From Myxococcaceae bacterium (GTDB lineage: Bacteria; Myxococcota; Myxococcia; Myxococcales; UBA5297), in the NCBI GenBank assembly GCA_017500825.1, contig JAFVYB010000081.1, positions 1 to 64,000 on the forward strand: a stretch of DNA of 64,000 bases, read 5' to 3'. Numbering within the stretch: the stretch's first letter is position 1; every line of letters begins with the position of its first letter. The notes beneath the pieces are model-generated. The model did no database searches. It was given only the letters and a program-made list of their open reading frames with translations, and was not told the DNA's origin. This document shows positions 946 to 4,541 of this stretch, in pieces. Position numbers and translations under genes: made by a program.

Positions 946-1200
946 GGTGTTGCTCCTTGTGTGTAGGCCAGCTCAAGTGCTGGGCGCCAAAGGATGGTGG
1001 CGATTTTTCCAAAAACAGCCGCCCATTTGGGGGAATATTAATTTTTCTTTTTTTTTATTTTAAAACGGCCTCTCCTTATTGTTTTTTTTTGTATGCTTCA
1101 GTGCTACTCATTGCTTTTATCATTTTATGAGCGTTCATAAGCTCGATTTTCTTTTTAGAGTTTTATTTAAGTTCCATCTTTCTAAAGTATTTTAATAATT
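946..1200. other. AT-rich spacer between Hsp20 and the inverted-repeat element
   Basis: This gene-free stretch turns sharply AT-rich from about 1030, with long T runs at 1047-1064 and 1081-1090, unlike the GC-rich surroundings. A short palindrome, TTATGA-GCGT-TCATAA, lies at 1125-1140. It should contain the Hsp20 promoter on the minus strand, but no convincing -35/-10 pair was identified. Confidence 0.5.
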
Positions 1201-1334
1201 TTTAAAAACAGTTTAATTCAAGAAACTACTCGGGAAGCGCGAATCGTGAGCGCTCCGGCCGCGCTCCTCTGCCCTAATAACAAGAGGGGAAAAGACCCAT
1301 GGTCGTTTTCCCCTCTTGGCTCCCCTTTTTCCTT
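1201..1334 (+). repeat. Left inverted repeat (IR-L) of the lipoprotein element
   Basis: This ~130-bp segment recurs in inverted orientation at 2599-2734 with scattered mismatches. Shared blocks from outside to inside: TTTAATTCAAGAAACT, CTCGGGAAGCGCG, TCCGGCC, CTGCCCTAAT, the 38-nt hairpin at 1281-1318, and GGCTCCCCTTTTTCCTT. The hairpin is a 13-bp perfect stem (CAAGAGGGGAAAA with TTTTCCCCTCTTG) with the 12-nt loop GACCCATGGTCG. Weaker similarity may extend inward to about 1375 (ACGCAAC, CAAAAGCC). No transposase or recombinase lies between the repeats. Confidence 0.9.
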
Positions 1335-1389
1335 ACGCAGTCGTCTCGAAAAGACAAAACGCAACCACAAAAGCCGTCAAACACGTCAG

Positions 1390-1418
1390 TTGACTTTCCG
1401 CAGAGAGTTTACTACAGG
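1390..1418 (+). promoter_or_regulatory. Possible sigma-70 promoter of the collagen-like lipoprotein gene
   Basis: TTGACT at 1390-1395 is followed after 17 nt by TACAGG at 1413-1418, about 50 bases before the ATG. The -35 match is good and the -10 match is weak. If real, the gene carries its own promoter inside the inverted repeats. Confidence 0.35.
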
Positions 1419-1469
1419 TTCACGGCTTTTTTATCAGAAGCGCGGTTTTCTCTTTCCAAGGGGTTGTCG

Positions 1470-2501
1470 ATGAAAAATAGTAGAATGTTGATGGCCTTGG
1501 CGTTTTCTCTGGTGTTATTCGCATGTGCTGGCGAGAATGGCACCAATGGTGTTGACGGCGTGAATGGCGTCGATGGCACGAATGCCTCGATTCAAACAAC
1601 CGCTTTGACAGTAGGCGATGAAAATTGTCCCAGCGGTGGCGTCAGAATTGATGTTTTGAGCAACGGAATTGTTCAGACAGATCAAACTCAATATGTTTGC
1701 AATGGCGCTAAAGGGGACACTGGCGAAACAGGAGCCCCAGGTGCGCAAGGTCCCTCTGGCGAAACAGGGGACATCGGAACGAACAACACGAATTCGAGTA
1801 TACAAATAACAACCGTGATCGTTGGAGACGAGATGTGTCCAGCGGGGGGCGTGAAAATAGAGGTTTTACTGAATGGAAATGTTCAAACAGATCAAACTCA
1901 ATATGTTTGCAATGGCGCTAAGGGGGACACGGGCGAGGCAGGCATTCCTGGTCCGCAAGGACCGCAAGGACCTAAAGGAGAGCAAGGTGACGCGAGCGAA
2001 ACAGGCGGCAATGTCAGTGGCTCTCGATTAAAAGCGCGTTACGCATCAACCCCAGATGGCGCCAAAGTCTTTATGGGCTGGTATGATTCTCAATTGAATG
2101 AAAAATGCACGTTTATGTTGGCAGAAGATGGGAGAATGAGATGCCTCCCTGTTGCAAATTATGAGCAAAACGTGAATTTTAGCTATGGAGAAGCCTTTCT
2201 AGATAGCCAGTGCCTGGGCCAGAGTTTTCTGGTCGTCTACGAATATAGCTGCGATAAGGGAACCAGTCGCTATGCATTTTTTTATAATTCTAACAGGAGT
2301 TTATGCGAGCGGGCGCAGTCTGTCAGTGTTTTTGAACTTCATTCGCATGAAGAGTGCGATGAAACTGGATATCTTTATAGACTGTCCGAGAGCGGCGAAT
2401 GTGTTAAATCCTATTCGTGCGCAGGTTATACACCCTATACATATACAAAGCTAGACCCAGAAACATTTGTTTCTGTGTCGACAGACGAGACATACGAATA
2501 A
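1470..2501 (+). CDS. Lipoprotein with collagen-like G-X-Y stretches and two DUF7151-type modules
   Basis: The 343-residue protein has a lipoprotein signal (lipobox LFAC, Cys19), so it is probably anchored in the outer membrane and exposed. Three short collagen-like Gly-X-Y stretches (residues about 22-37, 82-102 and 152-175) surround two near-identical 70-residue modules (about 38-107 and 108-177). Each module has VGDE-C-P-GGV and ends YVCNGAKGDTGE, matching the DUF7151 lipoproteins of Myxococcota. The C-terminal ~165 residues are Cys-containing and not recognised. The ATG at 1470 follows AAGGGG and begins the signal peptide; the frame is open from 1299 but that extension is poor. Its GC content is clearly below that of its neighbours. 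The function is unknown; surface adhesion or structure would be a guess. Confidence 0.85.
   Translation: MKNSRMLMALAFSLVLFACAGENGTNGVDGVNGVDGTNASIQTTALTVGDENCPSGGVRIDVLSNGIVQTDQTQYVCNGAKGDTGETGAPGAQGPSGETGDIGTNNTNSSIQITTVIVGDEMCPAGGVKIEVLLNGNVQTDQTQYVCNGAKGDTGEAGIPGPQGPQGPKGEQGDASETGGNVSGSRLKARYASTPDGAKVFMGWYDSQLNEKCTFMLAEDGRMRCLPVANYEQNVNFSYGEAFLDSQCLGQSFLVVYEYSCDKGTSRYAFFYNSNRSLCERAQSVSVFELHSHEECDETGYLYRLSESGECVKSYSCAGYTPYTYTKLDPETFVSVSTDETYE
1579..1998 (+). repeat. 210-bp in-frame tandem duplication inside the lipoprotein gene
   Basis: Two copies with a period of exactly 210 bp (70 codons). The best-preserved part is about 45 bp, starting at 1671 and again at 1881 (GTTCA-ACAGATCAAACTCAATATG in part), with only one early mismatch. 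Other parts have diverged more. The copy number could change by slippage without breaking the frame. Confidence 0.85.
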
Positions 2502-2598
2502 TTTCTCAGGCCTTTTGTGCCCGCATTTTACGCTTTGTTTCGTTGCGGCCTTTGTCGTTGCATTCGCGCGCGTTGCGTATTGCGTTCTGCGGGTTTTA

Positions 2599-2734
2599 AA
2601 GGAAAAAGGGGAGCCACGAGGGGAAAACGACCATGGGTCTTTTCCCCTCGTGTCATTAGGGCAGATGCGTTTGGCCGGATGCACTTGCGATCCGCGCTTC
2701 CCGAGCAGTTTCTTGAATTAAATTATTTTTTAAA
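2599..2734 (-). repeat. Right inverted repeat (IR-R) of the lipoprotein element
   Basis: This is the inverted partner of 1201-1334. Its hairpin at 2615-2652 has a 13-bp perfect stem (CACGAGGGGAAAA with TTTTCCCCTCGTG) and the loop CGACCATGGGTC, the exact reverse complement of the left loop. Compared with the left copy, the third stem pair is C-G instead of A-T: both bases changed together, so pairing is kept. It ends in AT-rich DNA. Part of the outer block (GCGCTTCCCG) recurs at 2758-2767. Confidence 0.9.
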
Positions 2735-2865
2735 TATAAATATTTTTAGAGAGATCGCGCTTCCCGGGCTGTGAAGCGGAGCTCTGGAAAAATAAAAATT
2801 AAAATCGAGCTGATTGGAGTTCAAAGAAAAATAAAAACAACAATGCCGTGCGCCAAAGCACAAAG

Positions 2866-2964
2866 AATCAAACCTGCCGCGCGCTCAAGCGCTTTTAAGC
2901 TGCCCCGCGCTGAAGCGGCCTTTGAGTTGCCGCGTGCTGAAACGCACCTTTGGAACGCTGCGCC
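2866..2964 (+). repeat. Degenerate ~27-bp tandem repeat, about 3.5 units
   Basis: Units start at about 2887, 2913 and 2940, with a half unit before. Each runs AAGCG--CTTT--G-TGCCGCGCGCTG with substitutions and contains a small GCG-CTGA-AGCG-type hairpin. In one frame the repeats encode a 9-residue period (AFKLPRAEA, AFELPRAET), but the reading frame of 65 codons has no ribosome binding site and is not called as a gene. The region 2735-2987 otherwise holds no gene. Confidence 0.6.
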
Positions 2965-2987
2965 ATAGCGGGCGCGCGTCTTTTAAA

Positions 2988-4541
2988 TTATTCGCAGGTT
3001 TCATCTCCTGATTCGCATTCGACGACCACCAATTGATAGGGGCCGACGAGTCCCGCGTAGCTATCCAGGACGATGTCGTAGGTGCCGGCCTCAAATCGCC
3101 GCTGAATGATTTTATCATTGCGCGCGAGGCAACCACTGGCGCCGAGGCCGCCTGTGAGGACGTGCAAATCGATGTCGCTATTGTTTTCGCTGAAGACCAT
3201 CAATCGCACGTTGGTCGCCTGCTTTAGGGTCAACCGGTAATAAAATTCCGCGCCGCTTTCATCGGCGGTCGAACAAACCGGGTAACTGGCAATGATGCTG
3301 TGGGGGCTGCTTGCGGTATTGGCGTGATGGGTGAAGGGCAGGCTGGTGATTTGGAAGGGATCGGTCGGCGCGCCGCTGCCGGAGATGAAGGCGAGGCCCT
3401 CGGTGTCGGGCGCGCGTTCGCCGAGAATGACGGTGCGCCAGGCGTCGCTCAGAAGCTCCATGTTGTTCAGGTTGCGCAGGTTGTAGTTGTAAGTGAGCGC
3501 GTCGGCGGTGAAGTCGCATGGTCTGGACGACGAATTGCCGTGCAGGCCGTCGCTGGCGAGCGCCTGGCCGGGGATGTCTTTGGTCGCGCCGAACATGTCG
3601 AACCAGGGGATTTGGCGGGCTTCGGCCATGCCGCGTGTCAGGGCGTTGTAGGCGGGCACCCAGAGGGGGGCGTCGGGGAATTTAGCGCTGTCGCCGCGGG
3701 GCAGGAGGCCGGTGACGATGGGAACGATGCCCTGATCGATGAGGTGGTCGAGGAGCGCCGTCATGTTGGCGTGGAAGTTCCAGACGGCGTTTTGGTGAAG
3801 CAGCGGGCCTTCTCCCCAGGATTGCATGTCGTTGGTGCCGTAGCTGACGAGGGCGAAGCGCGGGTTGAGCGCGGCGATTTCCTGATCGACGGGGGCGATG
3901 CCGGTGCTGTCGGCGGTCATGGCCCAGCTGGCGGACATGCCGACCTTGGCCGCGAGCGAAGTGCGCGAGAAGGGCGAGCTGTTGCCGGCGCGGAAGGCGG
4001 CGATGGCGTCGGAGAGGTAGGTCCGGCCGTCGAGATCGAGGGCGCTGTCGCTGTCGAAGCAGCGCATGAAGTTGGTGTTCACCGTGTGCGAGTCGCCGAC
4101 CTTGATGAAGGTTTCGGGGTCGCTGTCCGCGTTTTTGGCGGTGATGGCGCGCATCGAGGCGACGACCGAGGGGGAGATGGGCGAGCGCACCCAGCCGTCG
4201 GGATAGAGCACCGGGCGGAGGTCTTCTTCCTCTTCGGGCGGATCGCCGGCATCGGGTTCGGCGTCGAAACCGGCGTCTGGCTCCGCGTCCAACGCGGCGT
4301 CCGAATCGGCATCGGGGCCCGCGTCCGACTCGCCCGCTGTCGCGTCGCTGTCCGGGAGGCCCGCGTCGTCATCCAGTGTGGGCGGTTCGAGTGTGTGCTC
4401 GGCGTCGCTCTCCCCGCTCGTCGCGGCGTCGATCAAAGTCGGCAGTTCGGCGGGCGGCAGCGATTCGCCACAGGCCAGGAAAAAGGGGAGGACCAAAAGT
4501 CCCAAAAGGCGGAAAAACAATGATTGGCGGGCGCGCGACAT
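2988..4541 (-). CDS. SGNH/GDSL-type hydrolase lipoprotein with Asp/Ala-rich linker
   Basis: The 517-residue lipoprotein (lipobox FLAC, Cys24) has a low-complexity acidic linker at about 58-107 (repeats of DAEPDAG), a feature common in myxobacterial surface lipoproteins. It is followed by an SGNH-hydrolase domain: block I GDSH (149-152, Ser151 the probable nucleophile), block III GTND (235-238), block V DGLH (331-334). Family members are esterases or acetyl-polysaccharide deacylases; the substrate here is unknown. The C-terminal ~110 residues (FYYRLTLKQATNVRL, SDIDLHV) look like a PPC-type beta-sandwich. ATG 4541 was chosen over the upstream 4598 because it starts a clean signal peptide and follows GGGAGAG. 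Confidence 0.8.
   Translation of the reverse strand: MSRARQSLFFRLLGLLVLPFFLACGESLPPAELPTLIDAATSGESDAEHTLEPPTLDDDAGLPDSDATAGESDAGPDADSDAALDAEPDAGFDAEPDAGDPPEEEEDLRPVLYPDGWVRSPISPSVVASMRAITAKNADSDPETFIKVGDSHTVNTNFMRCFDSDSALDLDGRTYLSDAIAAFRAGNSSPFSRTSLAAKVGMSASWAMTADSTGIAPVDQEIAALNPRFALVSYGTNDMQSWGEGPLLHQNAVWNFHANMTALLDHLIDQGIVPIVTGLLPRGDSAKFPDAPLWVPAYNALTRGMAEARQIPWFDMFGATKDIPGQALASDGLHGNSSSRPCDFTADALTYNYNLRNLNNMELLSDAWRTVILGERAPDTEGLAFISGSGAPTDPFQITSLPFTHHANTASSPHSIIASYPVCSTADESGAEFYYRLTLKQATNVRLMVFSENNSDIDLHVLTGGLGASGCLARNDKIIQRRFEAGTYDIVLDSYAGLVGPYQLVVVECESGDETCE

Follow-up and report, generated by a model that had tools for sequence, protein, structure and literature searches.

In a 64,000-nt stretch of a draft Myxococcaceae genome (contig JAFVYB010000081.1, positions 1 to 64,000; hereafter the window), a gene for a collagen-like surface lipoprotein lies between two inverted repeats, or arms. 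We find that these arms belong to a large family of dispersed repeats, whose copy number, modular architecture and conserved fold can be read directly from the genome. It is probable, in our judgement, that the family consists of long, multi-hairpin, composite palindromic intergenic repeats, private to one species and similar to miniature inverted-repeat transposable elements (MITEs) or bacterial interspersed mosaic elements (BIMEs), and that a few of its copies bear genes. An earlier note on the window had proposed instead a non-autonomous mobile cassette or an invertible switch carrying a surface protein. The local pattern is better explained by membership of a large repeat family, of which it is one visible copy and which is the source of many of the breaks in the draft genome.

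Inverted arms around the lipoprotein gene

The arms (1200-1334 and 2599-2734) are 88% identical over 135 nt, and their longest common exact run is 32 nt; the earlier note's description of the flanks as inverted copies is thus correct. Identity is 90% between 1254-1334 and 2599-2679 and 85% between 1200-1253 and 2681-2734, and the inverted symmetry continues outward to about 1035 on the left and about 2840 on the right. Each arm contains a hairpin with a perfect 13-bp stem and a 12-nt loop, GACCCATGGTCG on the left and CGACCATGGGTC on the right. The third pair of the stem is A-T in the left hairpin and C-G in the right; that is, both bases have changed, as had been noted. The hairpin pattern occurs twice in the window, where the chance expectation is 0, and the predicted fold of 1215-1340 has a z-score of -3.2. 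The two loops are indeed exact reverse complements, as the note had stressed, but this is no additional observation, since it follows from the arms forming an inverted repeat. The same note's remarks on composition and gene content also hold: the gene and its flanks have a GC content of 40-51%, versus 65-70% further to the right in the window, and there is no transposase between the arms. The features of the locus are collected in Table 1.

Table 1. Features of the lipoprotein locus, in window coordinates.
Feature	Positions	Strand	Basis or remark
Left outer repeat modules (AAGCTCGATTTTCTTTTTAGAG... type), mirrored on the right	1035-1199		inverted pairs I3 1111-1156/2795-2840 (72%) and I4 1035-1052/2788-2805
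Left arm, A1 subtype (loop GACCCATGGTCG), gene-facing	1200-1334	+	inverted-pair and genome searches, pairwise alignment
Left hairpin, 13-bp stem, 12-nt loop	1281-1318	+	inverted pairs; pattern count; fold
Conserved inner junction GCTCCCCTTTTTCC	1319-1333	+	pattern across the genome; aligned copies
Inner left sequence and gene upstream region	1335-1469	+	alignable in part with the region upstream of the C77 lipoprotein gene
Collagen-like lipoprotein gene	1470-2501	+	lipobox LFAC; 343 aa; two DUF7151-like/collagen repeats; unrelated C-terminus
Inner right region, CGCAACG-rich read from the right arm	2502-2598		typical of the inner side of A1 arms
Right arm, A1 subtype, gene-facing	2599-2734	-	inverted-pair and genome searches, pairwise alignment
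Right hairpin, 13-bp stem, third pair C-G for A-T	2615-2652	-	inverted pairs; pair counts
Right outer repeat modules (second CGCGCTTCCCGGGCTGT, AAAATCGAGCT..., GCCGCGCGCTCAAGCGC palindromes)	2735-2985		repeats D5, I3, I10; matching modules beside other arms

A large family of dispersed repeats

The window's own genome, as searched here, comprises 2.9 Mb in 125 contigs and is 89% complete. The left arm of the window, used as a query, recovers about 40 separate arms; a divergent type of arm from contig C77 recovers at least 40 more, partly in the same places. Combining both searches, we count at least 77 distinct arms, spread over 59 contigs, so the repeats do occur elsewhere in the genome, as the earlier note had supposed. 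Of the 75 arms with known position, 64 are no more than 500 nt away from a contig end. The draft assembly breaks inside these elements, and many of its contig breaks lie in the family; the window copy is probably spanned by its contig because its interior is a unique gene.

The genes near the elements include housekeeping genes, such as those for DNA polymerase III alpha, FolD, QueA, TruA, Sua5/YrdC and PrkA. In 41 of 61 cases, a few places being counted twice, the nearest gene has its 3' end toward the arm, a bias like that of repetitive extragenic palindromes (REPs) toward gene 3' ends (PMC3733652). No transposase was found among the fetched element interiors and 20 scanned neighbouring genes, a sample that excludes cores lying off the contigs, which are unreadable, and a search that did not extend to every transposase family genome-wide.

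On sequence comparison, the family looks private to one species. Among 40 relatives, two of the same genus, the arms find no match beyond chance-like pieces of 20-33 nt, and exact patterns of arm and core have no match in other GTDB genomes or in viral contigs. Nothing similar is found among plasmids and phages, and we therefore rejected a phage or plasmid origin. We found no empty site: the Hsp20 locus of relative G001 and the PBP4 loci of relatives G001, G002 and G004 have different neighbours, without synteny across the site. Nor was a target duplication found, the outer boundary of the elements being a mosaic that fades into other repeat modules.

Architecture of the elements

The standard element begins and ends with outer modules, which extend some 100-350 nt beyond the arms before unique sequence is reached. 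Between them lie an arm (about 60-140 nt) with a strong hairpin at its end, then a core and an inverted arm. The core is non-coding and forms three hairpins, M1, M2 and an inverted M3, with a spacer between the last two. Complete arm-core-arm elements are present at C90:1901-2399, C74:23343-23732 and on C103, the cores of the latter two being shortened or variant, and in complete elements the arm hairpin is followed by a junction, GGCTCCCCTTTTTCC or GCTCTCCCTTTTCC, before the core. Core modules occur at many other places, often running off contig ends. The 511-nt element on C90 is predicted to fold end to end, at -285 kcal/mol (z = -18). At the window locus and on C77, a gene for a collagen-like surface lipoprotein occupies the position of the core. 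The CGCAACG-type sequence on the inner side of the window's right arm also lies inside the arms of C107, C77, C115, C103 and C60.

M1, M2 and M3 differ in sequence and follow one plan, in which a GC stem leads through an internal loop to a second stem, capped by a long AT-rich loop. The internal loop is TCAGA/GATTC in M1 and M2, and TCAA/GATTC in M3. It is possible that the three represent a structured RNA or DNA motif private to the species. In core hairpins at L095:1956-2335 (C90), L035 and L134, the TCAGA/GATTC loop recurs between stems that differ by compensatory changes.

Three further observations concern the surroundings of the elements. On C77 (L031:3918-4424), a truncated A arm lies directly against a complete B-M1-M2-M3 element, which suggests adjacent or nested insertions. 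The outer flanks of B-type arms (L035:2080-2310, L098:4750-4890) are built of imperfect repeats, each about 27-40 nt long (TTGACATCGGCATGTCAAAGTC, for example). The short palindromes GCCGCGCGCTCAAGCGC and CCCGCGCTGAAGCGG at window 2860-2985 recur in the outer flanks of other elements, forming a further repeat layer.

Conservation of the fold

The conservation of the hairpin fold across copies is real. Across 27 distinct arm hairpins, 96% of cells are paired, and 4 of the 13 stem pairs have changed on both sides (22 cells), compared with 0-2 cells in slid controls; in 8 core hairpins of the M2/M3 type, 3 pairs have changed on both sides (10 cells), compared with 0 in slid controls. Related copies are not independent in either of these counts. 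The earlier note had taken the compensatory pair in the window as a hint of selection on structure. The preservation of structure stands, that pair being one of several such pairs; selection is not proved, since conversion of one side of a palindrome by the other could also yield the paired state. The core hairpins, with their common internal loop and compensatory changes, offer a target for asking whether folded repeats are kept for their structure.

The lipoprotein gene and its relatives

The lipoprotein gene starts at the ATG at 1470 (MKNSRMLMALAFSLVLFACAGENG...), and no clear sigma-70 site was found on the + strand in its upstream region (1335-1469). Its product matches the Pfam families Collagen (8.5e-10) and DUF7151 (4.8e-5, which is below the curated cut-off), and its C-terminus has no Pfam match. 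On C77 a related gene also lies between inward-facing arms, just as the earlier note had thought worth looking for, and its upstream region can be aligned with that of the window gene. On C115, a lipoprotein gene with an FGE-sulfatase domain has a degenerate core module on one side and an A1 arm on the other; degenerate core-like palindromes are seen around this gene at L133:2050-2350 and 3940-4040. The arms do not enclose the related lipoprotein genes on C107 and C90. The collagen/DUF7151 lipoprotein family is expanded in the congener G002 (loci L081-L090), with several repeats per gene; around these genes we found short palindromes and, in L082, a single 44-nt pair, but no long inverted arms. 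The gene family can therefore multiply without needing the repeats, and the repeats, for their part, mostly carry no gene.

Weighing the explanations

We favour a family of intergenic repeats of the kind described at the outset. Such elements would have dispersed between genes as passive repeats, in the manner of MITEs or BIMEs, and would be tolerated because their hairpins lie mostly at gene 3' ends, where they might end or protect incoming transcripts and shield whatever lies between the arms. The gene-bearing copies would owe their origin to recombination or duplication between repeats, and not to an inversion system; we infer that an event of this sort, involving the repeats, accounts most simply for the bracketed genes. 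If gene-bearing copies truly arise by replacement of the core, the family would show a way for genes of surface proteins to be packaged and duplicated by passive intergenic repeats, with no transposon involved.

Several results weigh against this reading. The genome has four clear homologues of the window protein (on C46, which is the window's contig, C77, C107 and C90), and each adjoins an element, as do four of the seven genes with an FGE-sulfatase domain (those on C77, C107, C90 and C115, but not those on C5, C58 and C29). Measured against some 80 arm-adjacent genes among a total of about 2,500 (our own estimate), lipoprotein and FGE genes stand beside elements in excess of what would be expected for an unrelated gene and repeat, and the excess is unlikely to be due to chance. 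Moreover, no dedicated enzyme or mechanism of spreading was identified, and a simple terminator scan did not flag the arms, so that terminator activity can only be presumed. As the main role of the arms, termination is plausible from their position; we rejected it, given the scan.

One alternative is a non-autonomous mobile cassette, whose arms would serve as terminal inverted repeats and whose arm-gene-arm lipoprotein units would be moved by a transposase acting in trans. Paralogous genes with alignable upstream regions do lie between inward-facing arms at the unrelated loci C46 and C77, a third gene, on C115, is enclosed by a degenerate core module and an A1 arm, and MITE-flanked integrons and MITE-mobilised genes are known (PMC10969869). 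Nevertheless we regard the cassette as unlikely, and this half of the earlier proposal as unproven: most copies are gene-less and sit beside housekeeping genes, the C107 and C90 genes lie outside the arms, G002 has many such genes without long inverted arms, sampled elements have no transposase in or beside them, and neither an empty site nor a target duplication was found. In addition, each arm of the window is nearer to an arm on C107 (91% for the left, 94% for the right) than to its partner. The same comparison bears on the invertible switch, in which recombination between the arms would flip the gene. Repeats that recombine often with each other are expected to stay alike; the window arms face inward and have their 32-nt exact run in common, but since each is closer to the C107 arm, inversion is disfavoured. 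Moreover, we saw no recombinase or invertase nearby and no good + strand promoter within 1000-3000 for a flip to connect or disconnect, and members of the family are found everywhere, including around non-coding cores. We thus consider the switch extremely improbable, and do not retain that half of the proposal.

The strong fold and the stem pairs changed on both sides might instead reflect a structured RNA (or a folded substrate of single-strand DNA), which the elements would encode or of which they would be decayed copies, and which would have spread through its fold; the internal loop common to M1, M2 and partly M3, despite differing flanking stems, fits this idea. A search of Rfam, however, returned nothing beyond weak chance matches, microRNA-like ones among them, that scored far below the gathering thresholds, and DNA processes that maintain palindromes could yield a like pattern; we hold this explanation to be very unlikely. 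Another long shot is a transposase-free giant fold-back family, in which the three-hairpin core with its conserved loop motif would be the substrate of its own spread, as single-strand DNA or RNA, and would be swapped for host surface-protein genes in a species-private form of gene capture. Finally, the bracketed gene might be a misjoin at the repeats, at which the assembly does break in most places. We find this scarcely credible: A1 arms differ by 5-12% among themselves, enough to be resolved, the contig is continuous through both arms, and C77 shows a like arrangement.

Comparison with known systems

The core hairpins and the assembly breaks superficially resemble an integron attC array. 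We rejected this identity, because attC sites need RYYYAAC/GTTRRRY ends whereas the core stems (GCCCTAAG...ATGGGC) are without AAC/GTT ends, and because the units are inverted and not direct.

The elements bear a likeness to MITEs such as Correia, QMITE, Chunjie and ERIC (PMC10969869). Like these, they are multiple dispersed intergenic copies, dozens per genome, with inverted ends, a strong fold and no transposase gene; most copies are non-coding, and an occasional one flanks a gene. They differ in their arms (60-140 nt versus 4-30), in their multi-hairpin core and in being private to one species, and no target duplication or related insertion sequence was found among those sampled. REPs, BIMEs and REPINs (PMC3733652) are likewise dispersed modular hairpins in alternating orientation, spread throughout intergenic DNA and biased to gene 3' ends. 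The units described here are much longer, and no unpaired GTAG or CGTC tag was recognised by eye at the stem foot in aligned arms or core hairpins. REPs of the CGTC type also have no dedicated transposase (PMC3733652). For the Y1 transposase of REPs (RAYT, PF01797), the 89%-complete assembly gave 0 matches at E≤1, and we accordingly rejected identity with a RAYT/REPIN system.

With regard to gene-bearing copies, the MITE-flanked class 1 integrons of Acinetobacter (PMC10969869) similarly hold gene cargo between two inverted-repeat elements; here, by contrast, single chromosomal lipoprotein genes replace the core, and mobility is only putative. The lipoproteins themselves share with other collagen-like/DUF7151 surface lipoproteins a lipobox, a short Gly-X-Y stretch and a repeated cysteine module, and are distinguished from them by the unmatched C-terminus of the window protein and by the FGE-sulfatase domain that its paralogues carry.
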